Virus record (IMG/VR): IMGVR_UViG_3300035703_000126
Coordinates: 1 to 52,994 of that record
DNA: 52,994 nucleotides
Direction: 5' to 3' (one strand)
Source: a virus
This document shows positions 2,955 through 50,977 of this stretch, piece by piece (positions within the stretch are counted from its first letter, which is position 1; each line of letters opens with the position of its first letter). The position numbers were made by a program, and so were the translations under genes. The notes below the pieces were generated by a model. That model made no database searches. It was not told where the DNA came from and saw nothing but the letters and a program-made list of their open reading frames with translations.

Positions 2955-3184
2955 TGCCAGAAGTCCTGAGCAGCAACGGCATGTTTGAGTGCGATGACAC
3001 CGGGCGCGTAACGAATTTCCGCCCGCTATCAACGGGAGATCCGGACTACCATCGCATCATCCGCCTGGATCTGCCCGCTGGCGAAGGGCCGTTCGATATT
3101 CTCCAGTGTGGCGTTCACACAGACGATGGGCGGTACGATCCGCCGGAGTGGGTACTACAAAAGGGGGAACCTGAACCATGCTGA
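2954..3184 (+). CDS. Hypothetical protein
   Basis: A 76-residue protein with a beta-rich composition (GMFECDDTGRVTNFRP, then HRIIRLDLPAGEGPFDILQC) and a short acidic/proline tail. No family is recognised. The start is ATG 2954 behind GAGGGAG; a GTG at 2951 is the alternative. It overlaps the following secreted-protein gene by seven bases. Confidence 0.5.
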   Translation: MPEVLSSNGMFECDDTGRVTNFRPLSTGDPDYHRIIRLDLPAGEGPFDILQCGVHTDDGRYDPPEWVLQKGEPEPC

Positions 3185-3501
3185 GACTGATCACCGCGCT
3201 GTGCCTGCTGGCTCCGCTGAGCGCGGCTGCCGAGGACTTCTACGTCGGGCCGCCGGGGTATGCCGGGCCGCCGAACTACCAGTACCACTACCGCTACTGC
3301 CCACAGCCTGCGTATCAACCGCCGGTCTACTGGCAGTTCATCCGGCCGCAGTACAGCTATCTGCCGCAGCCGTACCGTTACCCGCCGGCTCCGATCTGGC
3401 ATCAGCCGATCACGGTGGTCCCGGCGCTCCCTGGAATCTACCGCAGCGACCTCAGCCCCACCGGCTGGGTGCAGCAGCGGGCTTACTGGCCGGGATGGTG
3501 A
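3178..3501 (+). CDS. Secreted Pro/Tyr-rich protein
   Basis: The 107-residue product starts with a clear Sec signal peptide (MLRLITALCLLAPLSAAAED; cleavage probably after SAAA). The mature part is dominated by Pro, Tyr, Gln and Trp (YVGPPGYAGPPNYQYHYR, then QPPVYWQFIRPQYSYLPQPY), typical of extended, low-complexity cell-surface or extracellular proteins. It is unusual to find this among early phage genes; it may be a cargo gene acting at the host surface. No catalytic motif is seen. Confidence 0.6.
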   Translation: MLRLITALCLLAPLSAAAEDFYVGPPGYAGPPNYQYHYRYCPQPAYQPPVYWQFIRPQYSYLPQPYRYPPAPIWHQPITVVPALPGIYRSDLSPTGWVQQRAYWPGW

Positions 3502-34449: not shown

Positions 34450-37400
34450 GCAGGCTGAGTCTGTCCGGTCTGGCGGATCTGTATCCGGAACGACAGCAGG
34501 GGCAACCAGCCCGCGATTACCGGATGCAGCCGCAGCCGGGTGGCAGGCCGTTGTCCGTGGGTGGCTATGACCTCGTGTCGCCGGACATGCGTGACACGGC
34601 CGCGCAGGACGCCGCGATTGCCGAACAGGCTCGTCGCGCGGATGCACAGCAAAAGGAACTGGATCGACTGTCCTGGTGGGAGCGGTTCAAGAACATTGGG
34701 GCACGACTCGGCGCCGGCATGAACCCGGACGCTCAGGTGTCACCGGCGGAAATGCCGCTGCCCGATCCGCAGGCAGAAGCCGCGCGAATCATGGAAGAGC
34801 AGCGGAAGGAGCAGGTCCGGAAGTCGAGTCCGTACTACCAGCAGGCGTTGATCGAACTGCAGGCGGAAGACCGGCTGAAACGGCTTGATGCTCAGTACCA
34901 GCGTGAAGCGGATGAGCGGCTCAAGGGCGTCGGACTGCCGCGCATCGGTCTGCGTCCCGGCCAGCAGCCGCCCACGATGGGCCAGGCGATGGCGGAGGAG
35001 ATCGCTCAACGGACCCGCGAGGACCGGGCACGGGAGTCCGGCTATCAGTACGAGACCGGGGCACTGGCGGAAGACCCGTTTGGACGCACTCAGATGCGTT
35101 CCGGAACGCCCGGAGAGAGTCCGCAGTATCCTTTGCTGCGTGACATCGGCATGGGGCTGAGAAACGCTGGCGGTGCTCTCGGCTCTGTGGCGCTCCGGAT
35201 GTTCGGATCGGACGATCTGGCGAATCAGGCGCAGGCCTACATTGAAGGCCAGCGGATGCGTCAGGAGCAGGAACGAACCGGCGACCGATTTCCGTCCATG
35301 ACTCGTGCAGCGGCAGGAGCTACGGAGTCGGCGGCAACGCTTCTCGGAGCCAGTGCTGTCGGCGGGATGCCGGCCGTGATCGCCACCTACGGCGCGGAGG
35401 CCTTCGATCAGGGGCTGTACGACGCGAAGCAGGCCGGGCTGGTTGGAAACGACCAGTTGCGCTACGCAGCCGGCGAGGCGGCCATTGCGAGCCTTGTGTC
35501 GCCGATCATGGATCGACTCGGCATGTCCGGCGTTGAGAAGGCGGCGATGGCACAGCGCGTCGCCAATCGGACGATGCGGAATGCCTTCGGAAACCTGGCA
35601 AAGACGGAGGCCGGTGAATTTGGTCAGGAGCTTCTGGAGCTGTCGCTGTCGTCCGCATTGCAGGCGGAAACCGGCGTCGATCCGCAGGCACTGGAACTCA
35701 GCACGTTCATGCCGCGAGTGGCTGATACGGCTTTGACGACGATGCTGACAGTCGGCGCCGTCGAGTCCCCGAACATTGCAGCGGCAGTGGATCGGTTCAT
35801 CCGCGAGCCAAGCCGGAAGAACTACGCCGGCCTGCCGGAGGAAATCCGCGCGCCGCTGGGCGACACCGTGAAGTCCTCGGCGGACCGGCAGCGACTGGCC
35901 GAACAACTGATCGCGAATCAGACGCCGCCGCAAACGGAACCGCTTGAAACCGCTCGAAACCGCTCGAAACCGGAGGAAGCACTTCAGCCCGGCGTTACTT
36001 CGCCGCCGGGACCGTCCGCCGGGAGTCCTCAGCTACCGATGGGGACTCCCGGTGTCCAACCAGAAGATCAAGGCGTCCCGTCTCAGGTTCCAGTTCTCAG
36101 TCCCGGAGAGGAGGTGATCGTTGATGAAGAGCGGATGCAAAGGGGGCCGGAAGGGCGGCAAAGGGAAGTAGTCGCGCCACCGGTTCCCGATCCGACAGAG
36201 CAGGCCGGCGGCATCCCCGTCGCCGCCGAGCCTGCTGCTGCTCCTGCTGAAACAGCTCCCGCGCAATGGATGCTGACTCCGGAAGACACTGCGATCGCTG
36301 AGAGGGCTATTCGCGACGTGATCAGGGCTGGCAAGCCGCGCATCCAGGACGCGGATGTCGATGATCTGACCGGCAAGGTTCTCGATGTTGTCGCGACGCA
36401 GTTTTCTCCGGAGCGTGGGAACCTGCGAAACTACGCGCGGAAACTTGCGAAGAATGCCCGAACGACCTTCATGCGAGAGCGGCAGCGCGGTCCTGAGCAG
36501 ATGCCGGAAGGTGTTACCGATTCTGGTGCAGTCGATCCGGCGATCGAGGCGCAGATCAACGAACGCGCCCGGGCGGAAGGCATCGACATCAACGTGCCGG
36601 AAGTCCCCGATGTGCCGCAGGTCGGCAACGCGCCGCCACAGCCAGATCCCGGACAGGCGGCAACGGACATGCCGAAGATCAGGGCCAACAACGTATGGGT
36701 CGGACAATCCGGTCCCGTGCGGATCAACAGCACCAAAGGCGGACTGGTGACATTCAAACCCGTTGGCGCCGCAGGGGAACCGCAGACCCTTCCGGAGAAT
36801 GAGTTCCGCCAGCAGTACACTCCACGCGGAGCGACCCAGCCACCAGCCCAACCCGTCGAACCAGTCACGACTGAAAGACCGCTGTATGACCGAGCGGTTG
36901 ACTTTGCTGTCGGCAAAGGTGTCGTGAGCACTGGAATGCTGCAAAGGGAGTTTGGACTCGGATACACCGGCGCGGCACAACTGATCGACCAGATGACAGA
37001 CTCTGGCGTGATCGCCCCATCAACCGGAGCGCAGGAGCGAAAGGTATTGCTGACTTCAGCACCGCAGGCAGTCGCTCCACCAGCACAACCTTCCGTGCCG
37101 CCCACAGAGCAGCCGCAACAGGCAGGACTGCAAACGCCTTCCCCGCAACCGGTGGACACGATCGCCGGCCGGATGGATCTGACTGAGTTCGAGACGAAGG
37201 GGTACGCGCCGGAGCAGGTCACGCGGCAGGACTGGATCAACCTGCAGAGGGCTGAGCGTCGTCGGCTGGGGCAGCCGGAAGAATCCGGGACGCAGTACGC
37301 TCCGTTTGCTGACTACGAAGAGTTCCATCGCGACGCTGTCAGGCAGGCAGTCGCGCGCGGCGATGAAGTTGATCCCCAGGTTCTGGCGGACTATCCCGAT

Positions 37401-40400
37401 CTGGCTCCCGCGTCGTCGGCCGTCGAGCCGGAGAAGACGATCGGCCAGCAGGCAGAGCCGGAGTCACAGCCAACTCCGGCAATAAGCTTCGAGCAGTTCG
37501 CCGACGCGATGGAGCGATCTGAACGAGGGGCGAAGCGTGATGGATCACTGGTGTCATTCGGAGACCTCCGGCGAGAAACAGGCCTCAGCAAGCCGGACTT
37601 CGACGCAACCGTCCTGCGATTCAAAGCGGAGGGCAAGCTGAATCTGCACACCGACGACTTCCCCGGCAACAGAACTGCCGAGGAACGTGAGCGGTTCATC
37701 CCAACAAAGACAGAGCGCGGCGACACATACTTTCTTGGCGCGTCAATCAGCGAAACTGCGCGCGACGAACTGGCCAGGCAGCCGGCTGCCACTCCACAGG
37801 CCACACCGGAGGCGACTCCTGCGCCGCCCGCCGAATCGCCGCAGAAACCAGTGAAGCCGCGAACGCCGGGCAAGCCACTCAATCGCACGCAGAAAGATGC
37901 AGCCCTGCGGCATCACTTCACGCCTGGAAAAATTGTCCCGTCATACAGCGGACAGGATCGGGTGATCGCATTCAATCCGGGCGGCCCTGAGTCCACATGG
38001 AGCGTGGACGTGCAGGCTGTTGACGAAAGCGGTACTCCTATCGAGGGCGAGGTTGTTCGACGGCACGGCACGGAGCCGGACGCGAAGACGCTCCTGAAGG
38101 CCTACGATGATCTGGTGGCATCGCAGCAGGCAACCGCCCGGCCGACAGAGCCAGAGGCGAAGCCCGCCAGGAAGAGGAAGGAATCACCAGAGCGGGAACC
38201 ATACCGCAGGACAACTGACGCATCGCCGGAAGGGCGAGCGCTGCTGCGATCACAAACGGAAGCATATCGTGACAGAATCACTGAGCTTGAGCCTCGGCTT
38301 AAAGATGCCAGAAAACGTCTGGCCAACACGCGATCTAACGCACACAAGAAGCGAGGCGAAATTCAGACTGAGATCAACGAGATCGAAAACGAAATAGGCC
38401 GATGGAGACGCATGGAGCAAAAGGCGGCAGACGAGTACCGCCGTGCTGCAATTGAGGACGCGATGGAGGATCCGAAATCAGACCTGCATCGTCAGGCTGG
38501 TCTTCGCGAACTCGCCATGCTCGATTTTCGGGAGGCGGAACGGCGAGGTGCAGATGCCCGCGAGAAACGAGATCGAGGGTCGTATGACGCGGCCATGAAG
38601 CAGATGAGCAGCCTGGAAGACAGAATCCGTGCGATGGATCACGATCTTGAAGCTGGGTTTTCTCAGATCGCCATTGAAAGGCACGGGGATGCTCTGACTC
38701 CAAACGAGATCGCATCAGTCGCATCGCTGTCAAAATATGACTTCAACGTGGATTCGCGAGGCACTCCGGAATCAGTCATCGACAGTCGCGCCGAAGAACA
38801 GATTGCCGGTCGCAAGAACAACGTGAGCCTGGCGGATATCAGCGGGCTTCCTGAGGATGATCGGCAACGGCTGGAAAAGCAGATCGAGGATGACCTGCGA
38901 AAGAAGGAGTGGCACGAAACCGTTACGCGAGTGCGGAATGAGGCGTCTGAGATTGCCAGAACCGCACGAGAGGAATCACAGAAGCGGAAAGCGAAGGAGG
39001 CGCAGGAAGCTGCTGAGGAGAAAAGAAAGTCAGATATTGCAGAGGCCAAAGAGAAGTATGCGCAGCGCAAGTCAAGCTCCACCGAACTGCGATACTGGAA
39101 GCAACTGAAGGAACGTGCCAGCAAGATCAAGACACAGAAGGATGTGTCAGGAAAGTATGGCGACGATGCTGTGAAAGGGGACGCCGTCGGCGAGACCTGG
39201 CTAATTTACGCCGCCGGAAAGGGGGATTACGTCCTGATTCACCGTCCATCCGGCATTGGAGTGACGCACGCCACGAATCCGAGCAACGCTAAACAGCTCA
39301 TTTTGATGCTGGAAGACGCCGGCATTGATATGTCGAAGTACGAAACGGCCGACTCTATCCCGGCAGATGTCGCGAAGCTCGCCGGGCAGATCGTTCGCGC
39401 ATGGGATAATGAGGACTTCCAGCAGATCACCGACGATGGGAAGCGTGGCGATATTTTGTCGCGAGTCCAGAAGCCTGATGTTGGGGTGAAGTTCGATATC
39501 GAAGTCGATGCGGCTGATGTTGAGAGTGCGAAGAAGATTGGAAGTAAATCTGCAGAGCAGCGACTGCGAGAGTTTGTCCGCGAGGTTCCGGAGTTCGGCT
39601 ACAACCCCGTCTTCACGGTGGATGACAACAAAAGACTGGTCTTCAAGGATGGTTTCAAGTTTGCGCTGAACCCGGAATTATTCGGGATCGACGCCGACAT
39701 TCTGGAGCCGGGATTTCGCGTTGCCGTCAATCTGGAAGACATTGGCATCGCGCGGCCGACTGCCGCCGAAGTCGTGAAGGATGTGCTGAGCCGCGAATTC
39801 AAAGTGACCAAGAGCGGTCCATCCGTGTTCGCCGTCAAGCCGCTGGATAAGCCCGATGGTCCGGCTGTCGTGGTTCGACAGGGCAGCGGAGAAGAATGGA
39901 TCGCCGGAACCGGATCGGACGCTCCGCACTACGCACGAGTCGAACAACTCCTGAAGGGCATCCCGTGGCGGGAAAGCGAGCAGGTTGCAAAGAACGACAA
40001 GGCGGCCGACGCCGACGCACAAGAGTCGCTTCCGCCAGTTGTCGCCGCTCCATACAAGGATGACTTCGCAAGGATTCTGCCAGTTTTAGACCGTCAGGTC
40101 AGGGCGGAAATCAGCCCGAATAAACAGAAGACTATTGCCATCAGCCACATGGATGGCGAGCCGCCGGCAATTCAGCGGGCTATTGCAGAACGCCTGCAGC
40201 AAATTGCTCCGGATGCGGTTCGGAGTGCCATCGCTCAGCCAAAGTCTGTTCCGATTGGCATGATGGCTCATTTCAGGGCGGTCACCACTGAGCTTGACTC
40301 TGAACGACCTGGTGGATCATCGGCGGTCGGAATGCCGGCGAAATCATCGAAGCCGGTTCCCGCTGTGCCACGGGACATGCCGCTGTTGTTGCCGCCGGCC

Positions 40401-43400
40401 GGAGACACCGGGAAGCCTGTGGCGATCCGCACCATCATGAATGCTCTGGAGCAGGCGGTATCCCTGCTCGGCAATGAAGTGCCGATTCGCGTCGGAAAAA
40501 TGTCGCAACGAACGGCACTCGGCATCTTCAAGGTTCACGATGAAGTCGCGCGCATCCGAGAAGCCAACGACCTTGAAACGGCCGCTCATGAAATGGGACA
40601 CGCCATCGACAAGTTGATCAATGGCTGGCCTAAGGGTGGACCGTGGAAAACGCCGCGAGTGCAAAAGCTGGTGCAGGATGAACTGACAGCAATCGGCCGA
40701 TCCCTCTACGTCGATACCGCGCCAACCGGAGGATACAAGCGCGAAGGCTGGGCGGAGTTTGCCCGGCTGTGGCTGACTGATCCGGAGTCGGCCGCGAAAT
40801 TTGCCCCACATACGTCGGAGTGGTATCGAGACACATTTGAGAAGGCGTATCCGAAAGCCGCTGCGGCTCTGCGGGAAGTGCAAGGCATGATTACGAAATG
40901 GAGAGAGCAGGGAGCGAAAGCACGACAGAGTACGGCGATCATCGACACCGGCAGTGTTCCGCAGAGAGTTGAGCGCATTAAAAAGTGGGCAAAGCACGCC
41001 GTCAGCATGGAAGCCCATATCGAGATGCTGGAGCCGCTGTGGGGTTTGGCCAGAGAAGCCGAGAAGCGAACTGGCAGGGAGCTGGCTGCGACAGACGATC
41101 CATACGCTATCGCGGATGCCTTGCGGATGGTTCATCATGCGCGAGTCGAGACATGGGTTCGGCACGGCATGACCGACCTGGCCGGAATGCCGACAGGAGT
41201 GAAACCGCTCAGTGACGTCGGAAAGCTGATTCCAGAACAAGAGCGGAACGACTTTGTGCTGTATTTGTGGGCGAGACGGGCACTGGCCTTGATTCTCGAT
41301 CCCCGTGGCCCGCGAAATCCCGGCATGTCGCTCAACGAAGCGGAATACCTCATCGCCGAGCTTGATAACCCGCGATTCCGGGAAGCGGCGCAGATCGTGT
41401 ACGACTGGAATGATGGCGTTCTGGATTACGCGGCTTCTGCCAGTCCAGTGTTCGCTGATGTTGTTCAACGAATCCGTGCGCGTGATCCCGGCGCATACAT
41501 TCCTCTTGCCCGATACTTCCGGGAACTCGATGAGATTTACAGCCGGAGCGGTGGCGGCAACGACATGATGGGCACGTTGATGGGCAAGTTGCGAGGGTCC
41601 GGCCGGGAAATCAAAGACCCGATTCCGCAGATGATCGCCAACGCCACAAAGATGGCGCACGCGGCGCATGACCGCATGATTCTGGACGCGATTCAAAAGC
41701 TGTCCGCGAACGTGCAGGGGCTGGGGAAGTACATCGAGAAAGTGCCGCGCGATAAAGTTCCGGCGGCGGCCGTGTCCGTCGAGGAACTTCTGCGGACACT
41801 GGAAAAGAAACTGTCGGAGCAGGAAATCGACATGACACTGACTCGTTACGACGAGCCAGTTGAGAAAGAAGACCTTCAGGATCTGATTGGCGAGACAGTC
41901 ACGTTCTTTACGACGGCAATCAATCCGTCAGGTCCGTATCCGATCATGCCGATGTATGACGCGACAACGAAGAAGATTGAGTGGTTCTATCTCAACGGCA
42001 ACCTGTATCACGCACTTGGCGCCATCGAGATGGCGGGGCTTCCAATGATTGGAGGGTTCAATCTACTGGCTCCGCTGGCCGCATTGAATCGACTGCGGAA
42101 AGCGGGAACTGTCGGCTTGCGAGCGGCATTCCAGTTGTTCACAAACCCGACTCGCGATCTTCAGACACTGCTTCAGAACACGCAGTCGCGGGCGACTCTA
42201 CCTAAAGTCGCATGGGAGTACGCACGCCAGACTCTAGGTGCCGCATGGAATCTCCTGCCAGGAACCCAGCCGACATCGGCAATGCAGTTCTGGAGAAACG
42301 CGGGCGGGCATGTCGCGCAGATGCTTGGCGAAGATACAGCACGCACACGAGAGTTAGGCAGTGAGGTGTTCGGTAAGAAGTTCAGCCGGCGACTGCTGCC
42401 GTCGAACTGGTGGAGCAACGTCAAAGACGCATACGACATTTACAAGGACATCGTCCAGATTCCGGAAGCAACAGCCCGCGCCACTGAGGTGCAGTTGCTG
42501 ATGGACGAAATGGGCATCAAACCTGGGGACCGCATCACGCTGGAGCAATCCCTGCGGCTGCTGACGGCGGGCAAGAAGGTTACGGTGGACTTCAGCGCCG
42601 CCGGCGAGTTTGCGCGGGTCTGGAATCAGCTCGCTCCGTTTTACAACGTCGCCATTCAGGGACCGCGTTCTATGGTGCGAGCGGCGCAGAAGAACCCGTT
42701 TGTTTTCACCGTGCGACTGGCGCAGGTGGCTGCACTGTCCGCGCTGTTGTGGTGGCGGAATAAGGATGAGGAATGGTATCGCAAGCTGAACACACGGCTG
42801 AAGACGATGTACTGGAGCTTTCGATATGGCGATCAGGTCATACTGCTTCCCAAAGCATTCGAGAACGGTGTCGGAGTGGCCGGCTTTGTTGAGTCCATGC
42901 TGGATCAGCAGTACGGACAGAATCCTGAGGCCGTGACGGAGTGGTTTCACCAGTTTATGGAAACTGCCACCCCGAACTACATACCGGGCGTTGCCGATGA
43001 GGTTCTGGCTCAGGCGATGAATGAAGACCTGTTCTGGAAGACGCCGATTGAGTCGCCGGAATTGCAGCGCATGCCGCGTCATGAGCGATTTAATGAGTAC
43101 ACGTCAGGCGTGGCAAAGTGGCTCGGCAAAACCATGAAGTGGTCGCCAGCTCGCATTGATCACGCTTTGCGCGGCATTGCGGGACCAATGGCTGGAGATG
43201 TGACGAGAACACTTGATGAGATTGTCGGAGTCAGCACGAAGCGAACGAGAGAGTGGGAGCCGGCAGACCTTCCGGTGATCGGTAAGGCGTTTCAACGTGG
43301 CGGAATCCACGGAACCCGCACGGCGAACATTGACAGGCTGTATGAGCGGCGAGCGGAAATGAACCTGCGGTCAAACAGTAAGGAGAACCCGGAAACGCCA

Positions 43401-43796
43401 CAGCAGCGACAGCAACGGCTGATGTTGAATGATGCCGCAGAGGCGGTGTCGGATATCTATCAGGCGCGGCGACAAATGGAAAAGACAGAAGATCGCGGCA
43501 AGGCGACTGATGAAGCGGATCGTATCGCGACTGATGCGCTGAAACGCCTTGAGTCCGGGACGCTGCCGCCGGAGCGCATCGCCATCCTGGTCGAGAACGC
43601 CATCTCTGAGGGGAAGTCCGAGAAGGCTCAGCAGGAGTCCCGCGAGGCACTGCTGATCCTCAAGCAGTCAGGGCTGTCCGCGCGGGAAATCACACAGGCC
43701 TACACGAAGAAGAAGCGAGCGGACAAGGAGCGTGTTCTGCCGTCGAACCTCAACAGGCTGAGGCTGCGGCTGTCGCGAACGAAGGCCGAAGAATGA
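34446..43796 (+). CDS. Giant polyvalent protein (3116 aa)
   Basis: The largest gene in the window. In order: residues ~200-450 hydrophobic and Ala/Gly-rich, like membrane-active cores; ~608-690 a sigma-70 region-2-like segment (DADVDDLTGKVLDVVATQF, PERGNLRNYARKLAKNARTT); ~811-872 an FtsK-gamma-like winged helix (RPLYDRAVDFAVGKGVVST, LQREFGLGYTGAAQLIDQM); ~915-985 a block common in polyvalent proteins, ending VRQAVARGDEVDPQVLADYP; ~1250-1560 long charged coiled coils; a metallopeptidase motif AAHEMGHAID (H2048, E2049, H2052) with a downstream EGWAEFARLW likely giving the third ligand; and a C-terminal ~1000 residues of large-polyvalent-protein LPD38-like sequence (VTVDFSAAGEFARVWNQLAP, FYNVAIQGPRSM). 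Such proteins enter the host with the DNA. Translation couples to the gene before. Confidence 0.75.
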   Translation: MSRLSLSGLADLYPERQQGQPARDYRMQPQPGGRPLSVGGYDLVSPDMRDTAAQDAAIAEQARRADAQQKELDRLSWWERFKNIGARLGAGMNPDAQVSPAEMPLPDPQAEAARIMEEQRKEQVRKSSPYYQQALIELQAEDRLKRLDAQYQREADERLKGVGLPRIGLRPGQQPPTMGQAMAEEIAQRTREDRARESGYQYETGALAEDPFGRTQMRSGTPGESPQYPLLRDIGMGLRNAGGALGSVALRMFGSDDLANQAQAYIEGQRMRQEQERTGDRFPSMTRAAAGATESAATLLGASAVGGMPAVIATYGAEAFDQGLYDAKQAGLVGNDQLRYAAGEAAIASLVSPIMDRLGMSGVEKAAMAQRVANRTMRNAFGNLAKTEAGEFGQELLELSLSSALQAETGVDPQALELSTFMPRVADTALTTMLTVGAVESPNIAAAVDRFIREPSRKNYAGLPEEIRAPLGDTVKSSADRQRLAEQLIANQTPPQTEPLETARNRSKPEEALQPGVTSPPGPSAGSPQLPMGTPGVQPEDQGVPSQVPVLSPGEEVIVDEERMQRGPEGRQREVVAPPVPDPTEQAGGIPVAAEPAAAPAETAPAQWMLTPEDTAIAERAIRDVIRAGKPRIQDADVDDLTGKVLDVVATQFSPERGNLRNYARKLAKNARTTFMRERQRGPEQMPEGVTDSGAVDPAIEAQINERARAEGIDINVPEVPDVPQVGNAPPQPDPGQAATDMPKIRANNVWVGQSGPVRINSTKGGLVTFKPVGAAGEPQTLPENEFRQQYTPRGATQPPAQPVEPVTTERPLYDRAVDFAVGKGVVSTGMLQREFGLGYTGAAQLIDQMTDSGVIAPSTGAQERKVLLTSAPQAVAPPAQPSVPPTEQPQQAGLQTPSPQPVDTIAGRMDLTEFETKGYAPEQVTRQDWINLQRAERRRLGQPEESGTQYAPFADYEEFHRDAVRQAVARGDEVDPQVLADYPDLAPASSAVEPEKTIGQQAEPESQPTPAISFEQFADAMERSERGAKRDGSLVSFGDLRRETGLSKPDFDATVLRFKAEGKLNLHTDDFPGNRTAEERERFIPTKTERGDTYFLGASISETARDELARQPAATPQATPEATPAPPAESPQKPVKPRTPGKPLNRTQKDAALRHHFTPGKIVPSYSGQDRVIAFNPGGPESTWSVDVQAVDESGTPIEGEVVRRHGTEPDAKTLLKAYDDLVASQQATARPTEPEAKPARKRKESPEREPYRRTTDASPEGRALLRSQTEAYRDRITELEPRLKDARKRLANTRSNAHKKRGEIQTEINEIENEIGRWRRMEQKAADEYRRAAIEDAMEDPKSDLHRQAGLRELAMLDFREAERRGADAREKRDRGSYDAAMKQMSSLEDRIRAMDHDLEAGFSQIAIERHGDALTPNEIASVASLSKYDFNVDSRGTPESVIDSRAEEQIAGRKNNVSLADISGLPEDDRQRLEKQIEDDLRKKEWHETVTRVRNEASEIARTAREESQKRKAKEAQEAAEEKRKSDIAEAKEKYAQRKSSSTELRYWKQLKERASKIKTQKDVSGKYGDDAVKGDAVGETWLIYAAGKGDYVLIHRPSGIGVTHATNPSNAKQLILMLEDAGIDMSKYETADSIPADVAKLAGQIVRAWDNEDFQQITDDGKRGDILSRVQKPDVGVKFDIEVDAADVESAKKIGSKSAEQRLREFVREVPEFGYNPVFTVDDNKRLVFKDGFKFALNPELFGIDADILEPGFRVAVNLEDIGIARPTAAEVVKDVLSREFKVTKSGPSVFAVKPLDKPDGPAVVVRQGSGEEWIAGTGSDAPHYARVEQLLKGIPWRESEQVAKNDKAADADAQESLPPVVAAPYKDDFARILPVLDRQVRAEISPNKQKTIAISHMDGEPPAIQRAIAERLQQIAPDAVRSAIAQPKSVPIGMMAHFRAVTTELDSERPGGSSAVGMPAKSSKPVPAVPRDMPLLLPPAGDTGKPVAIRTIMNALEQAVSLLGNEVPIRVGKMSQRTALGIFKVHDEVARIREANDLETAAHEMGHAIDKLINGWPKGGPWKTPRVQKLVQDELTAIGRSLYVDTAPTGGYKREGWAEFARLWLTDPESAAKFAPHTSEWYRDTFEKAYPKAAAALREVQGMITKWREQGAKARQSTAIIDTGSVPQRVERIKKWAKHAVSMEAHIEMLEPLWGLAREAEKRTGRELAATDDPYAIADALRMVHHARVETWVRHGMTDLAGMPTGVKPLSDVGKLIPEQERNDFVLYLWARRALALILDPRGPRNPGMSLNEAEYLIAELDNPRFREAAQIVYDWNDGVLDYAASASPVFADVVQRIRARDPGAYIPLARYFRELDEIYSRSGGGNDMMGTLMGKLRGSGREIKDPIPQMIANATKMAHAAHDRMILDAIQKLSANVQGLGKYIEKVPRDKVPAAAVSVEELLRTLEKKLSEQEIDMTLTRYDEPVEKEDLQDLIGETVTFFTTAINPSGPYPIMPMYDATTKKIEWFYLNGNLYHALGAIEMAGLPMIGGFNLLAPLAALNRLRKAGTVGLRAAFQLFTNPTRDLQTLLQNTQSRATLPKVAWEYARQTLGAAWNLLPGTQPTSAMQFWRNAGGHVAQMLGEDTARTRELGSEVFGKKFSRRLLPSNWWSNVKDAYDIYKDIVQIPEATARATEVQLLMDEMGIKPGDRITLEQSLRLLTAGKKVTVDFSAAGEFARVWNQLAPFYNVAIQGPRSMVRAAQKNPFVFTVRLAQVAALSALLWWRNKDEEWYRKLNTRLKTMYWSFRYGDQVILLPKAFENGVGVAGFVESMLDQQYGQNPEAVTEWFHQFMETATPNYIPGVADEVLAQAMNEDLFWKTPIESPELQRMPRHERFNEYTSGVAKWLGKTMKWSPARIDHALRGIAGPMAGDVTRTLDEIVGVSTKRTREWEPADLPVIGKAFQRGGIHGTRTANIDRLYERRAEMNLRSNSKENPETPQQRQQRLMLNDAAEAVSDIYQARRQMEKTEDRGKATDEADRIATDALKRLESGTLPPERIAILVENAISEGKSEKAQQESREALLILKQSGLSAREITQAYTKKKRADKERVLPSNLNRLRLRLSRTKAEE

Positions 43797-43839: not shown

Positions 43840-44013
43840 TCACCACGAAGACGCCACAAGGCGACTGACATACGCAGATTGCACGACAAACTCTTTGATG
43901 TCAACTCCATCCTGCCTACCATTCACAGCATGGCCCAGCCGAACGACGGGCAGGTCGATTGAGCAGGGGCACTCTAACAGCACATCGAGGTTCTGAAATG
44001 GATGCCGTGACAT
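43840..44013 (-). CDS. Small minus-strand ORF, unknown
   Basis: The 57-residue frame from ATG 44013 (MSRHPFQNLDVLLECPCSID, then LPVVRLGHAVNGRQDGVDIK) ends two bases before the hairpin that has a T-run in this direction. GGAG lies about 12 bases upstream of the ATG. Its ATG overlaps the PAS gene's ATG on the opposite strand (shared CATG), leaving no space for a promoter between them, so one of the two starts may be misplaced. Function unknown. Confidence 0.4.
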   Translation of the reverse strand: MSRHPFQNLDVLLECPCSIDLPVVRLGHAVNGRQDGVDIKEFVVQSAYVSRLVASSW

Positions 44014-44605
44014 GCCGTGGCTCAACTCCGCGTCGCTGGACGTACTCCGATTCTGGATCAGAGAAACGCCGTGCCCGATGCTCGTCGTTGCTCAGGACTC
44101 ACGAATCCTCTGGTGTAACCCTGCCTTCGAGCACCTCTGCGACTACTCACTCGTTGAGTTCACCCGACCAGACGCCCCGGTCAATATCGACTCGCTCATT
44201 ACTGACCGCAGCGATTCTGATGCTTATCGCAGTCTCGTTACAGACTGTCTGTCGGGCTTTCGACCCCACTTCCAGCTCACACTGAGCCTCCGTCGAAAGA
44301 ACGCGGCCAGCGTCACAGCCATCGCGCACTTCCTGCGTGTTCCATCGCAAGGCGACATGCAATACAGCATCGTCACGCTCTACCCACTCGAAAAAGCAGC
44401 CACGGAAGTGTTATCCGAACTACAGGCAATCCGCGCCGCTCTGGACTCTTCTACCGGAGTCCAGTTCAGCAAGCTGGTGGAGTGGGCGGATAAGAATCCC
44501 CGCAAGGCCGCGTTGCTCATTCTCATCGTCTGCGGAGCCATCTTCGGGACCAGTTTCTTCGACATCGCGCAGAGAGCGCTCAGCATTCTGCGCGCTTCCG
44601 AATAA
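44012..44605 (+). CDS. PAS-domain protein with C-terminal membrane anchor
   Basis: A 197-residue protein. Residues ~15-125 form a PAS domain: PMLVVAQDSRILWCNPAFEH, LCDYSLVEF, then FRPHFQLTLSLRRKNAA and VTAIAHFLRV. A coiled linker (EVLSELQAIRAALDSS) leads to a transmembrane helix at ~166-184 (AALLILIVCGAIFGTSFFDI). PAS domains sense small molecules, redox or light. Here no kinase, cyclase or HTH output domain is attached, so signalling would be through the linker or partner proteins. PAS proteins are rare in phages, suggesting acquisition from a host. Confidence 0.7.
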   Translation: MPWLNSASLDVLRFWIRETPCPMLVVAQDSRILWCNPAFEHLCDYSLVEFTRPDAPVNIDSLITDRSDSDAYRSLVTDCLSGFRPHFQLTLSLRRKNAASVTAIAHFLRVPSQGDMQYSIVTLYPLEKAATEVLSELQAIRAALDSSTGVQFSKLVEWADKNPRKAALLILIVCGAIFGTSFFDIAQRALSILRASE

Positions 44606-44701: not shown

Positions 44702-45457
44702 ATGCCCGACGCGGTCATCTACAGCCGCTTCTCGCCGCGGCCGGAAAAGGCCGGCGATCAGGAACTCAAAGCCCGCGCCGAAGACGCAGCCACGATCCAG
44801 CAGCAGATCGACGCCTGCCGGCGATACTGCGACATGAAGGGCTTCACAGTCACTCAGGTCATTCGCGATCCGGAAACATCAGCCCGGCACACGAAGCTCT
44901 TCGAGCGACCCGGCGGATCAGCACTGCTCGAACTGCCGCCAGGCACGCACATCGTCGCCGCCAAGCTCGACAGGCTCTTCCGTAACACGATCGACGGACT
45001 GTCCTCGATGTCCACGCTGCGGCGGAATGGACTCACGCTGCACCTCGCCGATCAGGGTGGATGCACGATCGACACCAACACCGCCATCGGGGAACTCATC
45101 ACCACGATGCTGCTCAGCGTCGCCGCCTTCGAGCCGCGACAGACAGCCGAACGGGTCAGCAAGGGAATGCGCTACCGCCAGAACACGCTTCGCCAGCGCA
45201 TGTCCGCCAACGTCCCGTTCGGATTCAGGCTCTGCCCGGACACCAATCTACTGATCGACGACGAACACGAACGGCAGCTCATGAAACGCTGCCATGCCCT
45301 TCGCAAGCAGGGCTTCTCCCTTCGGGAGATCATCGCAATCCTCGTCAGGGACGGCGACGAGAAATGCCGCGGGAAACAGTGGCACCCCAACACGATCCAG
45401 CGGCTGATCGAAGCGCACGAGAAGCATCTGGTCCCAGCAGGAGCAGCATCGGCATGA
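44702..45457 (+). CDS. Serine recombinase / resolvase-integrase
   Basis: A 251-residue protein with GGGGAGAGG upstream. The N-terminal catalytic domain has AVIYSRFSP (catalytic S8, followed by R9), a regulatory helix around QQQIDACRRYCDMKGF, and AAKLDRLFRN, the conserved DRLxR segment; the E-helix region follows (IGELITTMLLSVAAFE). The C-terminal ~90 residues (VPFGFRLCPDTNLLIDDEHE, LREIIAILV) form the recombinase DNA-binding part, ending in WHPNTIQRLI. It is short for a large serine integrase but has the recombinase domain. It would integrate, excise or invert phage DNA by cut-and-rotate strand exchange. att sites could not be identified. Confidence 0.85.
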   Translation: MPDAVIYSRFSPRPEKAGDQELKARAEDAATIQQQIDACRRYCDMKGFTVTQVIRDPETSARHTKLFERPGGSALLELPPGTHIVAAKLDRLFRNTIDGLSSMSTLRRNGLTLHLADQGGCTIDTNTAIGELITTMLLSVAAFEPRQTAERVSKGMRYRQNTLRQRMSANVPFGFRLCPDTNLLIDDEHERQLMKRCHALRKQGFSLREIIAILVRDGDEKCRGKQWHPNTIQRLIEAHEKHLVPAGAASA

Positions 45458-45864
45458 ACTACAACGGTATTTTCATTCCCGCGTGTATCGCCATCATCGC
45501 CGCAACGGCAGACGCGGAGGCTCCTCCGCCGCGAGGCATTACAACCACGGCGAAGGTCGTCAGAGTCCTCGACGGGGACACGCTCGATGTCGCGGTCACA
45601 ACGATCGTCCGCGTCAGAATCAAAGACTGCTGGGCGCCGGAGTCTCGCACAAAAGACCTGGCCGAAAAGGCCAGAGGAATCGCCGCGCGAGACAATCTGA
45701 AGTCGCTGCTTCCAGTGGACTCCACAGTCACGATCCACATCCCGACAACAGGCCGGCTGATGGATTCGCTCACACTCGAACGAGTCGTCGCGGATGTCTG
45801 GAAGGACTCTGACAAAGTCGCGGACCTGCAGATTGAAGCAGGACACGCGCGGCCATCGAAGTGA
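45454..45864 (+). CDS. Secreted SNase-like nuclease
   Basis: A 136-residue protein starting at ATG 45454, overlapping the recombinase stop. Residues 1-22 are a probable signal peptide (IFIPACIAIIAATADAEA). The SNase core follows: VVRVLDGDTLDVAV, VRVRIKDCWAPESR with APE, and a helix KARGIAARDNLKSLLP; later SLTLERVVADVWKDSD and LQIEAGHARPSK match the end of the family. The catalytic Arg and Glu pattern is partly recognisable. It may degrade host or competing DNA outside the cytoplasm. Confidence 0.72.
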   Translation: MNYNGIFIPACIAIIAATADAEAPPPRGITTTAKVVRVLDGDTLDVAVTTIVRVRIKDCWAPESRTKDLAEKARGIAARDNLKSLLPVDSTVTIHIPTTGRLMDSLTLERVVADVWKDSDKVADLQIEAGHARPSK

Positions 45865-46011: not shown

Positions 46012-46353
46012 TCATCCCCGCGTCATCTTCAGGAACTCGCCCGCTGAGGCCGGCACGGTGAAGCCGAAGATTTCCTTGAACCGTCGCGCGGACTCCGGAT
46101 CGCTGCCGATGAACTTCAGGATCGCACTCAGCAGCTTCAGCATCTCCAGCCACTTCCCGTTCAGGAACCGCACTCCGCTGCCGAGTGCCAGGCTGCCGGC
46201 CGACAGAGCGGCATACGTTCCGACGTAGGTGGCATACGGTCCGCTCGCCGACACGTTGCCCTCAAGCTGGATATGCGACGCGCCCGCCAGACCGCCGAAC
46301 AACGCCGCCAGAATCTGCAGAATCAGCGGCAACAGTTGAATCAGAAACGCCAT
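46012..46353 (-). CDS. Holin-like membrane protein
   Basis: A 113-residue protein with GGAG upstream of ATG 46353. The N-terminus is a long hydrophobic helix (MAFLIQLLPLILQILAALF) and a second weaker one covers ~45-60 (GTYAALSAGSLALG). The rest is soluble and helical (MLKLLSAILKFIGSDPE) with a basic end. Size and topology fit a holin-like protein that would permeabilise the inner membrane, but the assignment rests only on topology and on its place at the end of the exit block. Confidence 0.5.
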   Translation of the reverse strand: MAFLIQLLPLILQILAALFGGLAGASHIQLEGNVSASGPYATYVGTYAALSAGSLALGSGVRFLNGKWLEMLKLLSAILKFIGSDPESARRFKEIFGFTVPASAGEFLKMTRG

Positions 46354-46377
46354 GACCTGGGACTCCTTGCCCTGTGG

Positions 46378-46917
46378 TTACTTCACCCCGACCTCACGCA
46401 GTGCCTGCTGAGCTGTCGGACCGCCCGACTGCCACATCTGCGGCGCCCACGTTCTTCCGCGATACCGGATCGTCGGATACGACTCCGCCGGCTCACCCTT
46501 CACAACCCGCACCGTGTAGCCCAGCGCTCGGAAATCCGCGACCGCCAGATCGCACGCCAGGCAGCCATCCATCGACAACACCTCGATCACCGGCTTCTCG
46601 AACTCCGACGCCGAACGCAGAGGACGAGGATCGACACGAATCTGCGGCAACTCAGGCATGTTCCCGAAACGGTTTTCGGCAACACCGGAGCACCCACAGC
46701 CAGCCTTCCCGCAGCCGCATTCGCAGGTGTCAGCCGCCGGTGAACCGCCCCCCTCGTTGACGATCCGCCGCGTCTCCTTCACCTCGACCTGCAACTGGAT
46801 CGGGATCACCGTCGCAGCCACCGCGCCACCACCGCCCTCCGGCGGATTCACTCGCGGGATGAACGCCCCGCCGTTACAGCCGGCAAGAGCCAGCACCATC
46901 AGACTGATCCATCGCAT
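46378..46917 (-). CDS. Thioredoxin-like lipoprotein
   Basis: A 179-residue protein. A lipobox LALAGC (lipidated C14) follows a short signal peptide. Residues 65-76 are unusually Cys/Gly-rich (TCECGCGKAGCGCSG), possibly binding metal. The C-terminal half has a thioredoxin/glutaredoxin-like strand and CxxC: VIEVLSMDGCLACDLAVADF (C119, C122), then YTVRVVKGEPAESYPTIRYR with the cis-Pro-like segment. It would sit in the periplasm, anchored to a membrane, and might reduce or isomerise disulphides, or bind metal. Its position suggests a role near host exit or superinfection defence. Confidence 0.65.
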   Translation of the reverse strand: MRWISLMVLALAGCNGGAFIPRVNPPEGGGGAVAATVIPIQLQVEVKETRRIVNEGGGSPAADTCECGCGKAGCGCSGVAENRFGNMPELPQIRVDPRPLRSASEFEKPVIEVLSMDGCLACDLAVADFRALGYTVRVVKGEPAESYPTIRYRGRTWAPQMWQSGGPTAQQALREVGVK

Positions 46918-47102
46918 GATTCGTCACTCCCTTTGAGTTTGTGCGCTACGGCATGGTACTCATTAACGATCTGGTCCAACTGTTCATACACATTGGCCGA
47001 CCAGATCAACACGCAACTGCAATCCGGATGCCTCGCACACTCAGCACGCACAAGTTGCCCCGCAATGATTGCATTAACAATCTGCTCTCCAACGGATGGC
47101 AT
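46899..47102 (-). CDS. Hypothetical protein
   Basis: A 67-residue protein: VGEQIVNAIIAGQLVRAECA, a Cys/His segment (RHPDCSCVLIW), then helical sequence (ANVYEQLDQIVNEYHAVAHK). AGGGAAGGG precedes ATG 47102. Its stop overlaps the lipoprotein start. A small metal-binding protein is possible; no family recognised. Confidence 0.5.
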   Translation of the reverse strand: MPSVGEQIVNAIIAGQLVRAECARHPDCSCVLIWSANVYEQLDQIVNEYHAVAHKLKGSDESCDGSV

Positions 47103-47159
47103 GTCATTGCCCTTCCCTCACACTATCCGCCCGTAAATCCGGCTCCGGATATCGTCTAG

Positions 47160-47540
47160 TTAGGTAAACCGAAAAAACTCCAGCACATAGCCAGCTTCCG
47201 CCTGCTCTTCTTGTTTGGCGTACTTGCCGCTTTTGAGCTTCCTCAGATACACGACGGACGGACTCTCTGCTTTCCAGAAAGGAGCTACAACCCGCAGTAG
47301 CTTTACTGTTTCATCGCCGTCGGAAAACTCCAAAATGCCTTCTCTCGTGTCCCACTCGTCACCAAATTTCTCTTCGAGCTTATCCTGAAAAAGCGCAACT
47401 GTTGCAATTTCCCATTTTTTCCTACGCACCTCAGCTTCGATAGCAGCCTCTACGGCGGCGTCGCGAAGCCGTTCCACGAGCTGTTCGTCTACCTCGAAAC
47501 TGACTCCACGCATGCTATACACGCTTCGTTTTTTGTTCAC
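47160..47540 (-). CDS. Cassette-borne hypothetical protein
   Basis: The 126-residue protein starts at GTG 47540 (MNKKRSVYSMRGVSFEVDEQ). It is helical and charged (RRKKWEIATVALFQDKLEEK), with a beta-rich second half (ETVKLLRVVAPFWK, SVVYLRKL). Local codons are more A/T-rich than the neighbours. On this strand the frame begins about six bases after GTTAGGC and its TAA stop lies within ACCTAAC, the classic start and end of an integron gene cassette. No family recognised; cassette cargo is often of unknown function. Confidence 0.6.
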   Translation of the reverse strand: MNKKRSVYSMRGVSFEVDEQLVERLRDAAVEAAIEAEVRRKKWEIATVALFQDKLEEKFGDEWDTREGILEFSDGDETVKLLRVVAPFWKAESPSVVYLRKLKSGKYAKQEEQAEAGYVLEFFRFT

Positions 47541-47545
47541 GGCAC

Positions 47546-47630
47546 GCCTAACTAACGGTTGCAGCCGAGCCGCCTCATAGCTGCATGTGAGTCAAAGCCG
47601 TGGGCGGCGGCACAGCTGAACCTGGGCGTT
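47546..47630 (-). other. attC-like inverted-repeat site
   Basis: GCCTAAC (47546-47552) on the plus strand reads GTTAGGC on the minus strand. Arms GGTTGCAGC and GCCGCC (47557-47574) pair with GGCGGC and GCTGAACC (47603-47622) with one extrahelical base, around a variable middle, and GCGTT ends the element at 47630. This is the architecture of integron 59-base elements/attC. The far 3' GTTRRRY box is degenerate (GTTCACA), so it may be a relic. Confidence 0.45.
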
Positions 47631-48142
47631 CACAGAATCCACGGCGCCACGGTCACGTTCGGCAGGCGAGCCAGATCGCCAGGCGTCGTCTCCGCTGGAA
47701 CACCGAACTTCGGAACTCCGACCAGCATCAACGCGAACGCTGCCAGCTCCGAACAGAACCACCGCTCGGCGTGCAGGTCAGTTTTCAACTTCCACGCCCG
47801 GCTGATCCGACGCCACACCCACGAAAACGATCGCACGAACTGACGCGGCGAAGCGTACTCCTCACCGATCCGATGCAGCAGGAACCGCTTGATCTCCTGC
47901 CGCTGCTCGCCATCCAGCCCGTCCACCCGCCCGATCGCACAGTGACCGCGCCACTGCTGCCAGACATACGGCCGAACGATCCGCACGCCCTTGCCTTCGA
48001 GCGCCTCCACGATCCACAACTGGCCCTCGACCTCGACGAACACGCCGACGTGCGACCACTCCGACCCCGACCGCAGCCGGATCAGCCGCGACCACAGCCG
48101 CCTTCCGCTGAACAACGCCAGATCGCCCGTCCGTGGCTCCAT
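47630..48142 (-). CDS. C92-like permuted papain-fold amidase/peptidase
   Basis: A 170-residue protein starting MEPRTGDLALFSGRRLWSRL. EWSHVGVF (H31) near the start and RWFCSELAA (C130) near the end give the His-before-Cys order of permuted papain-like enzymes (YiiX/YaeF, C92 group, NlpC/P60 relatives), with VEALEG in between. These cleave amide bonds in peptidoglycan or related polymers. No signal peptide is seen, so release would need a holin. It is the best candidate for an endolysin here, but the substrate is unproven. Confidence 0.65.
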   Translation of the reverse strand: MEPRTGDLALFSGRRLWSRLIRLRSGSEWSHVGVFVEVEGQLWIVEALEGKGVRIVRPYVWQQWRGHCAIGRVDGLDGEQRQEIKRFLLHRIGEEYASPRQFVRSFSWVWRRISRAWKLKTDLHAERWFCSELAAFALMLVGVPKFGVPAETTPGDLARLPNVTVAPWIL

Positions 48143-48157
48143 TGGTCTGCTCCGTCG

Positions 48158-48529
48158 TTATCGAAACCGCTGGTTCAACTCTTCTATGCGAGCACGCAGA
48201 TGCTGCACGTCGCCGATGATCGTGTTGATTGCGGCCACCACATCACTGCATAGCTGCGCCGGGACAGCATCATTTGGTCCGTCGGCGGCTGTCTTAGCTG
48301 GAACCAGAAATGGCCCCAACAGAAACATCAGATCGCTGAGAGCATTGTGTGCCGCGCCAACGCAGTCGTGGGCTACAGCCAGTCGGTCTTCGATCGACGT
48401 GATTTCTCGCCCGGTGGCGACCGCTGGCCCACCATTGCAATGTGCGTTCATTCGCGCAAGCCCCTCTTCGCCTCGATCCGAGAACCCAACACTCATTCCG
48501 CCCATACGAACCATTTCAACCTGATTCAC
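48158..48529 (-). CDS. Hypothetical protein
   Basis: A 123-residue protein starting at GTG 48529 after AAAGGGGATG. It is helical (IEDRLAVAHDCVGAAHNALS, DVVAAINTIIGDVQHLRARI) with a hydrophobic stretch (LMFLLGPFLVPAKTA) too short to be certain as a membrane segment. It lies between the two papain-fold enzymes, so it may be an accessory exit factor, for example an inhibitor or spanin-like partner. Confidence 0.5.
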   Translation of the reverse strand: MNQVEMVRMGGMSVGFSDRGEEGLARMNAHCNGGPAVATGREITSIEDRLAVAHDCVGAAHNALSDLMFLLGPFLVPAKTAADGPNDAVPAQLCSDVVAAINTIIGDVQHLRARIEELNQRFR

Positions 48530-48561
48530 TCTGCATCCCCTTTGATAAAAGACATCCGTCG

Positions 48562-49380
48562 TTACCTCTTAACCTTCGGCAGCGGCTGTGCCTGCTTTGC
48601 CGCCCGGATCGCATACGCCCGGTGAAACCGGATCGTCCGCTCCAGGTGGCCCGATCGCAGCAACGCACGGCCGCTTGAACCCCACCTCACGCCCCACGAA
48701 TTGGACATCGTGAAGGCCAGTTCGCCGTCCGCCCACGCCAGCCCGTCCGCCAGAACCGCGTGATTCCCGGCTCCGTTGTCGATCCCCGCGAAGCCGTTCC
48801 GATCCAGCTTCGAGAACGAATCGCCTACATGCACGGCCAGCACCAGATCGAAACCCATCGCCAGAGCTGTGAACGCCCCGCGAACGGTCTCGACGGCATA
48901 GCACTCATGCGCCCGGTACAGCTTCGCTTCCCGGTCCGCCTGCTGAACGTCGTACTGGTTGCGGTAAATCTGATGCGGCCTCACCGTTGGCTCCGACGCG
49001 CAGCCGCGATCCATCAACGCTGCCATGCCGCGGTGCAGCGTGGAACCCTCGTCCCGGCCGTCGTTGACCAGCGAGTACAAATACGACCCGGACAGGTCCA
49101 CGCGGTCCTGACCACCGCGAACCCTCGCCCGCGCCAGAGCCATCGCTCCGGCCCAGCCATTACAGGAACCTGCCGCGCCCTGGTCTTTGATCCAGTTGCG
49201 GTCCTCGAACAGCGTGCGGCCGTCGAGCTTCCCGGTTCTGGCGATCTTCTCCAGTGCGCTGTCGGACATCTCCGGCACTGCGAAGACCGGCATCGACAGC
49301 TTCAAGCCCGGTTCCGGCAGCAGAGTCGCCAGCTTGCGCTCCACGCCGTCAATCACAATCACTGGCAGAGACTGAGTCAT
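48562..49380 (-). CDS. Papain-family (C1A) cysteine protease
   Basis: A 272-residue protein. The mature-type domain begins around residue 60: KDQGAAGSCNGWAG (oxyanion Q67, catalytic C73), followed by SGSYLYSLVNDGR, GNHAVLADGL (catalytic H207) and SNSWGVRWGSSG (N227). All four papain landmarks are present, in the usual order. The N-terminal ~55 residues may be a short propeptide or adaptor. No signal peptide. C1A proteases are rare in phages; in this block it may degrade the proteinaceous part of an envelope or a host target. Confidence 0.82.
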   Translation of the reverse strand: MTQSLPVIVIDGVERKLATLLPEPGLKLSMPVFAVPEMSDSALEKIARTGKLDGRTLFEDRNWIKDQGAAGSCNGWAGAMALARARVRGGQDRVDLSGSYLYSLVNDGRDEGSTLHRGMAALMDRGCASEPTVRPHQIYRNQYDVQQADREAKLYRAHECYAVETVRGAFTALAMGFDLVLAVHVGDSFSKLDRNGFAGIDNGAGNHAVLADGLAWADGELAFTMSNSWGVRWGSSGRALLRSGHLERTIRFHRAYAIRAAKQAQPLPKVKR

Positions 49381-49398
49381 GCGACATCCTTAACCTGA

Positions 49399-50196
49399 CT
49401 ACCAATCAACGCACGTTTCGCACATAGGAAGGCCATCATCCACAAACAACCTCATCTGTGCGGCATCCGCTGCAACGAGAGACTCCCAGCTCCAGTGTCT
49501 CCCAAGACCCTTGACTACATTGAGACCGCCGCGTTCGCGTGCGTTCTGCTCCATCTCAACAGCCCTCTGGAAGAGATCGGGGTACTCTCTGGCCAGAGCC
49601 AGCACTTCCGGCTTTCGCATCGCAGGGCAATAAAAGCACGCTGACTTTTCTGGAACATATCCAACAGCACGCACACATGCGGCCTCGCAGTCTTCCTGTC
49701 GCCACTTCCATTCTCTCAACGGGAAGCGGTAGGTGAACTGCGCGTCGTCGGGAATCTTTCCTCGTTTCGTCTCTCCGTAATGAATGCCGATGACTCGCTG
49801 CACGCGCTGTCCGCGTTCCCATGCCGCTTGCGCTGCAGGCCACGCCTTGACCCACTTATCCATCGGGTAGCGTTTCCACTTTTGAGAACAACCGCCGAAC
49901 CCGAACGCCTTGCTGGGCAGCGTACCGTTTGTGTGGCATTCATCTTCCAGGCTTGCGTGCCGGCTGGTGTCGCTGTATCGCACGATGATCAGTTCGGGAA
50001 ACCCGACATCAACACACCACCGCTGCATTCGCTCCAGGTGCCTGTATGTGCCCGGTTTCTCGCCGCCAGTATCGGCAAACAGGATTGCGTCCGGTCGCTC
50101 GCCGCGCTCAAGCATCCCTTGAAGTATTGCAGTGCTGTTTGTCCCGGCGCCGAAGCTGACCACTGACGGGCTATGACCTGGCAGTTCCGTTGCCAT
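49399..50196 (-). CDS. PAPS-reductase-like PP-loop protein
   Basis: A 265-residue N-type ATP-pyrophosphatase fold: SVVSFGAGTNSTAIL (residues 11-25; a variant of the SGGxDS loop), then ILFADTGGEKP, a GGCSQKWKRYPMDKW block, IGIHYGETKR, and a cysteine set (CFYCPAMRKPE, CETC at the end) able to hold a metal. Phages often carry such proteins; some act in sulphur transfer or DNA phosphorothioation. No DndA/B/D/E genes are seen, so phosphorothioation is not supported. Substrate unknown. Confidence 0.7.
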   Translation of the reverse strand: MATELPGHSPSVVSFGAGTNSTAILQGMLERGERPDAILFADTGGEKPGTYRHLERMQRWCVDVGFPELIIVRYSDTSRHASLEDECHTNGTLPSKAFGFGGCSQKWKRYPMDKWVKAWPAAQAAWERGQRVQRVIGIHYGETKRGKIPDDAQFTYRFPLREWKWRQEDCEAACVRAVGYVPEKSACFYCPAMRKPEVLALAREYPDLFQRAVEMEQNARERGGLNVVKGLGRHWSWESLVAADAAQMRLFVDDGLPMCETCVDW

Positions 50197-50218
50197 TGCT
50201 TACTCCTGAGTTCTCTGG

Positions 50219-50545
50219 CTATTCCAACTCGCTCACGGCTGCGAATATCGCCGCTGCCGTTCCCGCTTTCTCAGTCGCTCCATGCACTTTGAGTCTGTGA
50301 ATCAATTCCCTCAGGTTTACAGGAACAACTTCCGGGCGATGCACCAACTCCAACTGCCTGGCGTAAACCTCGTATGACGGGTCCACCTGCAAACGTCCGT
50401 TAATCATTCGCTCAACAGCAACAAGTACACTGCTTCCGACCTGGTCCTGCCTGACGACACCTTCGACGCCCTCCAGAAACCCTCCGCCTGAAAAACTCTG
50501 CAACGACCATACCCTGACAATGTCGCCAGCTTTGTATTCACACAT
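50219..50545 (-). CDS. Hypothetical SH3-like protein
   Basis: A 108-residue protein starting MCEYKAGDIVRVWSLQSFSG, followed by GVVRQDQVGSSVLVAVER, a small barrel-like beta-rich half, and a helical end (NLRELIHRLKVHGATEKAGT). No catalytic motif. Position next to the lipoprotein and PP-loop genes gives no function. Confidence 0.5.
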   Translation of the reverse strand: MCEYKAGDIVRVWSLQSFSGGGFLEGVEGVVRQDQVGSSVLVAVERMINGRLQVDPSYEVYARQLELVHRPEVVPVNLRELIHRLKVHGATEKAGTAAAIFAAVSELE

Positions 50546-50566
50546 GCGTTGCCTCGCTTTTCGTCG

Positions 50567-50977
50567 TCACTTCCCGATCACCGCAGAGACTCCGGCCGTC
50601 GTGTCCGGCAGCCGAACTGCTTTTGCCACTCGAACGCCATCGCCGTCCGGGACCAGCACCAGTAATGCCGGTCGAATCTCGCCAGCCGCAGCGACGTAGC
50701 CCGCGTCGATCGCGGACTGGTCGTCGTCGTCGAGGATGCGCCAGTCGATGCCGCGCTGCTTCAGCGACTGCCAGAACCGGAGGTCGGACAGAACAGCCGC
50801 TCGCGCCGGATCGTGCTGCCGGGAATCGGACTCTTCGATCACGACCACCAGAGCGGCGTCGATCACCGGTGCTGGCGATGGCTCCGGATCAGGCGTCGGT
50901 CCCGGCGGCAGCGGATCAGGCAGGCAGCCCGCCGTCAGCAGCAGGAATGCCAGAAACAATCTGCAAACGTGCGTCAT
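50567..50977 (-). CDS. Small lipoprotein
   Basis: A 136-residue protein. The signal peptide and lipobox LTAGC (C18) are followed by a Pro-rich tether (PDPLPPGPTPDPEPSPAP) and a compact domain (VIDAALVVVIEESDSRQHDP, RFWQSLKQRGIDWRILDDDD, LLVLVPDGDG). The Pro tether resembles outer-membrane lipoprotein partners such as o-spanins, but the globular domain is larger than usual. It is the first gene of the exit block, 42 bases after its promoter's -10. Confidence 0.6.
   Translation of the reverse strand: MTHVCRLFLAFLLLTAGCLPDPLPPGPTPDPEPSPAPVIDAALVVVIEESDSRQHDPARAAVLSDLRFWQSLKQRGIDWRILDDDDQSAIDAGYVAAAGEIRPALLVLVPDGDGVRVAKAVRLPDTTAGVSAVIGK

Follow-up and report, generated by a model that had tools for sequence, protein, structure and literature searches.

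How does a phage leave its host when its putative exit genes encode two papain-fold enzymes and no recognizable endolysin? The question is raised by a block of genes at positions 46012-50977 of IMG/VR virus record IMGVR_UViG_3300035703_000126, a 52,994-bp linear record that was analyzed at its full length (the window). The record is a fragment, as its left end cuts into a gene that is 5′-truncated at base 1. The block follows the structural genes, which span roughly 11.7-43.8 kb on the plus strand, and consists of ten open reading frames (ORFs) on the minus strand. Gaps between these ORFs were mostly short (-19 to 32 bp, with two larger gaps of 57 and 89 bp), and most starts were preceded by purine-rich sequence. 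This layout agrees with the single minus-strand unit proposed by an earlier sequence-only reading. We see about an even chance that at the heart of the block lies a module of papain and lipoprotein which acts on the envelope and assists host exit.

The gene at 48562-49380 encodes a protein matching Peptidase_C1 (PF00112) above the cut-off (E = 6.9e-7) and lacking a signal peptide. The full C1A catalytic set named in the sequence-only reading, Q67/C73/H207/N227, was present at exactly these positions. A profile built from three sequences (the record, its 51-kb relative G014, and the 595-kb phage LR756511) matched the bacterial papain xylellain (3ois) best among PDB entries (3e-18), and the AlphaFold2 model (predicted local distance difference test, pLDDT, 71.5) was matched by foldseek to cathepsin K (7e-12) and xylellain (8e-12). 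Catalytic residues, profile, and modelled fold identify the product as a C1A papain, and proteolysis is predicted. Like the xylellain-type bacterial enzymes, it is a short single-domain protease.

Scanning viral contigs with single sequences (the papain, the second papain-fold enzyme, and the holin-like protein) returned zero relatives. Detection of papain homologues required the three-sequence profile, which recovered 13 viral contigs; genome contigs yielded only distant bacterial papains. Across 12 phage homologues the Gln, Cys, and His residues were invariant, and Asn was kept in 8. The catalytic Asn is replaced by Lys (TKSWG) in the papains of L093, L096, L097, and L098. A second, solitary papain was also seen in huge phages, lying at L116, L117, and L118 between CTP-synthase-like, DNA-methylase-like, and ribonucleotide-reductase-like genes.

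The papain appears to have a conserved partner. The gene at 50567-50977 encodes a lipoprotein in which a LTAGC lipobox, read directly, is followed by a Pro-rich linker, as expected of the Pro-tethered lipoprotein described earlier. Its C-terminal domain was assigned with moderate confidence to the thioredoxin fold, given its predicted strand and helix order and the best PDB match of its AlphaFold2 model (pLDDT 75.9) to thioredoxin 2lst (3.6e-4, TM-score about 0.5). No CxxC was present in this protein or in the thioredoxin-fold region of its homologues, so it does not qualify as a redox-active thioredoxin.

By hhalign, 50567-50977 was related to two families of exported proteins, A9 and A10, encoded upstream of papains in two unrelated phage groups (E ~1e-5 to 1e-6). 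Neither score was reached by any of 200 shuffles, and no other protein tested from the record (under 400 aa) scored above 22 against these families. The first group comprises ~43 kb phages (L093, L096, L097, and L098) with a papain module just upstream of the terminase genes, ordered as an anchored SNase-like protein, a ~130-aa anchored protein, the papain, and a membrane-anchored thioredoxin (WCGPC/WCGSC). The second comprises huge phages (L087-L091 and the 595 kb LR756511), in which the papain gene comes after that of a secreted protein with a Pro-rich linker and is followed in turn by genes for an amphipathic protein, an anchored protein of 620 aa, and a CxxCH protein. The homologue lies directly upstream of the papain in L093, L096, L097, L087-L091, and LR756511; in L098 it is also nearby on the upstream side, with an 87-aa ORF possibly intervening. 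In G014, the papain neighbors a secreted Pro-linker protein with only a weak relation to the partner families. By these sequence comparisons, unrelated phages have kept the papain and the lipoprotein together.

A scripted count found an exported, same-strand immediate neighbor at 11 of 17 papain loci, against a per-gene background of 15%. As loci within a group are not independent, the count was redone by groups, by hand and with start sites corrected by eye. It gave about 7 of 9 groups with an exported immediate neighbor, where the 15% per-gene background would predict roughly 28%, a modest excess.

This linkage bears on the simplest alternative, that the papain is a cytosolic protease degrading host proteins or processing virion proteins, with lipoproteins as unrelated neighbors. 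The missing signal peptide and the solitary papains of the huge phages and of FLC9 would fit such a role. However, lipoprotein and papain recur together in unrelated lineages, and the partner homology outscores every shuffle, making a purely cytosolic role improbable.

What, then, links the pair to lysis? In several phages the papain lies beside or within lytic enzymes. In L099 it adjoins a SleB-type Hydrolase_2 protein (3.7e-7), small membrane proteins, and a Tat-type lipoprotein. In phage THSA-485A, an endolysin with GH25 and PG_binding domains is encoded 16 bp upstream of the papain. The 753-aa annotated endolysin of Alicyclobacillus phage MMB025 carries a papain, an Rv2525c-type glycoside hydrolase, and PG_binding_1 on one chain; its papain domain belongs to the same Pfam family as ours, and a C92/phrog_1128 gene lies nearby. 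It differs in the fusion of the papain to glycoside-hydrolase-like and PG-binding domains, and no thioredoxin-fold lipoprotein partner was seen there. In Leptospira prophages, a holin/antiholin pair has been reported next to a putative endolysin of the cysteine-protease type (PMC8705779).

Could the papain itself be the endolysin, cutting cross-links in peptidoglycan or a wall made of protein and dispensing with any other peptidoglycan hydrolase? Pfam scans of essentially all predicted genes, run on pooled alignments, found no known peptidoglycan-lytic or PG-binding domain in the block or the record, meaning that no endolysin family stood in the match list, which leaves the matching member unnamed. 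The scanned genes of the L096 contig gave no endolysin by Pfam, nor did the 45 proteins scanned from G316, a relative repeated with a 50.9-kb period. Papain-fold CHAP and NlpC enzymes are also known to cleave peptidoglycan (PMC10318531). Even so, the papain looks like a helper, because it adjoins or is fused to recognized peptidoglycan-lytic domains in L099, THSA-485A, and MMB025. C1A enzymes, moreover, are established as proteases. The sequence-only reading had noted no conventional endolysin; this agrees with the Pfam result, but the absence is unproven, because the record is linear with a 5′-truncated gene at base 1, and divergent endolysins escape Pfam. Taken together, we regard the papain as very unlikely to be the endolysin.

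In the reading we prefer, a protease-centered module assists lysis. The papain would be made in the cytosol and would reach the periplasm late, once the inner membrane has been opened. The partner lipoprotein would be exported, with its thioredoxin-fold domain held off the membrane by the proline-rich tether, and might be cleaved by the papain, act as its receptor, or regulate it. Together they would weaken the envelope by cleaving its proteins, helping the phage out of the host; the peptidoglycan hydrolase working alongside them would either have escaped recognition or be encoded in a stretch of the genome that the record lacks. Direct grounds for this reading are the catalytic residues, the modelled folds, the recurrence of the pair in phages of unrelated groups, and, in several phages, the nearness of lysis genes; from these we infer how the papain crosses the membrane, what it cleaves, when it acts, and that it serves lysis.

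The closest known parallel is Listeria Mtz-Tim, a phage-derived metzincin and lipoprotein that enhance phage-mediated lysis in a manner requiring Mtz proteolysis (PMC8235301). Both systems join a phage-associated protease to a lipoprotein partner, and here too the genes for protease and exported partner are conserved together, with two genes intervening in the record. The components differ: Mtz is a secreted metzincin, whereas the papain lacks a signal peptide, and Tim is TIMP-like, whereas the partner here has a modelled thioredoxin fold; no homology is claimed. By analogy, our best reading is that the papain-lipoprotein pair acts like Mtz-Tim, sensitizing cells to lysis.

The proline-rich lipoprotein of a putative exit block also recalls lambda Rz/Rz1. 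However, 50567-50977 differs from spanins in carrying a folded domain of thioredoxin type where these have a short peptide, and the L096-type partners are membrane-anchored rather than lipoproteins. No i-spanin was seen among the block ORFs.

Several observations weigh against a lysis role. The second papains of the huge phages and the papain of FLC9 have no exported partner and are surrounded by metabolism or unannotated genes, and the papain-lipoprotein pair of L151 adjoins nucleotide-metabolism genes. From these settings it follows that presence of a papain does not always mean lysis. In the record itself, two genes separate the lipoprotein from the papain, and the holin candidate of the block is weak. 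The position of Asn227 is Lys in 4 of 12 homologues, and within the phage family of the record the papain was undetected in the members searched, except G014.

Some of this evidence would suit an accessory envelope module unrelated to lysis, which might remodel or protect the cell surface, for example by superinfection exclusion or receptor removal. The pair moves as a cassette between unrelated phages, it is followed in huge phages by exported, cytochrome-like CxxCH proteins, and in L151 it sits among nucleotide-metabolism genes. The block also adjoins a serine recombinase and runs on the strand opposite to the structural genes. Against this, SleB, GH25, and PG-binding domains neighbor or are fused to the papain in other phages, and a holin-like gene has a protease gene as its neighbor in G010 and perhaps also in G013. 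We consider an accessory role possible but doubtful.

G010 and G013 belong to the phage family of the record. In G010, a holin-like gene with two transmembrane segments is followed by a matrixin (PF00413, 2e-15) and then by CxxCH proteins, the larger of which is related to the 620-aa protein encoded downstream of the huge-phage papain (blastp about 1e-9). In G013, a marginal trypsin-like protein lies beside a small holin-like gene. Exported CxxCH (c-type cytochrome-like) proteins were seen in huge phages and G010 (L087:9311-12060 and L130:5886-8329). A more speculative proposal, which we think rather unlikely, is that one slot beside the holin is filled by unrelated proteases (papain, matrixin, and perhaps a trypsin-like enzyme) whose partners are tethered envelope proteins of the thioredoxin-fold or CxxCH kind, and that hosts with protein-dependent envelopes are breached in this way with no classical peptidoglycan endolysin.

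No prior report turned up in our searches of open-licence papers of a conserved pairing of papain with thioredoxin-fold lipoprotein, or of differing proteases beside a holin-like gene within one phage family. To our knowledge, accounts of phage lysis have centered almost exclusively on peptidoglycan hydrolases, holins, and spanins. If the lysis-assisting reading is true, envelope proteolysis would be added as a general step, and phage C1A papains would gain a testable function. Papains of this type have already been reported in Caudoviricetes (PMC10380794); the part of that survey consulted here reports their acquisition and gives no role or partner, whereas a conserved lipoprotein partner was seen here.

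Clues to the host were sparse. PSCyt1-type CxxCH domains in the huge phages and G010 scored below cut-off and give a hint of a Planctomycetota host; a control search for this domain returned no match anywhere. Neither Planctomycetes nor Verrucomicrobia is mentioned in the main text of the paper on huge phages (PMC7162821). A relative of the record occurs as a tandem repeat in G316:C1 (L144-L147), with a period of 50,933 bp and identity over the 1.7 kb checked. The G316 genome belongs to the same phylum as the Verrucomicrobia metagenome-assembled genome of L004, and may represent the host or a bacterium with which the phage was co-binned. No host was assigned, leaving the protein-rich host envelope envisaged earlier without support.

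Among the other block genes, that at 47630-48142 encodes the second papain-fold enzyme. It matched PF05708 (1.5e-6, 28.8 bits against a cut-off of 27), phrog_1128 (3.6e-19), and the YiiX structure 2if6 (4.5e-5), and GD6, H31, and C130 were present in permuted order. This profile and catalytic pattern bear out its earlier identification as a C92-type, YiiX-like permuted papain amidase. We rejected it as a lysis gene: in Bacillus phage Troll, a phrog_1128 relative has tail and baseplate genes for neighbors, and the PHROG relatives examined were located in tail or baseplate modules.

The PP-loop gene at 49399-50196 was upheld in identity as PAPS-reductase-like (phrog_424, 2.2e-30), but its membership in an envelope module was unsupported; it is probably a passenger.

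For the proposed thioredoxin-like lipoprotein at 46378-46917, the lipoprotein assignment stood, with a LALAGC lipobox read directly and a Cys-rich linker. A thioredoxin- or glutaredoxin-like domain is suggested by its CLAC and "YPT" motifs, but PDB search and profile comparison for thioredoxin were both non-significant. This protein was also considered as a homologue of the WCGPC/WCGSC anchored thioredoxins adjoining the papain in L093/L096/L097/L098, and failed against shuffles. Activation of the proteases by thiol chemistry is unsupported for the conserved partner, since 50567-50977 lacks CxxC; redox activation by the CLAC lipoprotein is possible.

The supposed holin at 46012-46353 is a 113-aa protein with a single hydrophobic segment at residues 2-22 and no significant Pfam or PHROG match, which leaves it a possible holin, not a confirmed one. 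Its candidacy as a homologue of the amphipathic proteins beside huge-phage papains failed against shuffles. The sequence-only reading of an envelope-breaching strategy based on cysteine proteases is partly supported: a protease-centered module gains backing from the conserved pair, from papains beside or within lytic enzymes, and from the other proteases beside a holin-like gene in relatives, but C92 as a lysis enzyme, the PP-loop protein as a component, a confirmed holin, and thiol activation of the proteases do not. Four further block proteins were without assigned function and had no significant match in Pfam or PHROG: 67 aa (46899-47102), 126 aa (47160-47540), 123 aa (48158-48529), and 108 aa (50219-50545).

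Adjoining the block on the plus strand, 45454-45864 encodes a small exported protein whose DGDT and VRIKDCWAPE stretches form an SNase-like motif, recognized by eye and not significant; a relation to the anchored SNase-like proteins failed against shuffles. Farther out are the serine recombinase (44702-45457) and a protein that has a PAS domain and ends in a hydrophobic segment at its C-terminal side (44012-44605). Homologues of the recombinase in relatives (40-45% identity) lie near terminase on the opposite strand, and these sequences suggest a temperate phage family. The plus-strand structural region encodes TerL (phrog_5989), a portal assigned via position and relatives, a major head protein (phrog_9953), SU10-type adaptors, and a 3,116-aa polyvalent protein (34446-43796; FtsK_gamma 1e-16, LPD38 3e-28). 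The truncated gene at 1-543 contains the motif FAIDNGAYSGFD, which we take to resemble DpdA-type DNA-modification proteins, and a similar motif is present in the relative G003 near 2757-3434. Within the tail module, 23304-24266 encodes a protein that by eye is glycosyltransferase-like.

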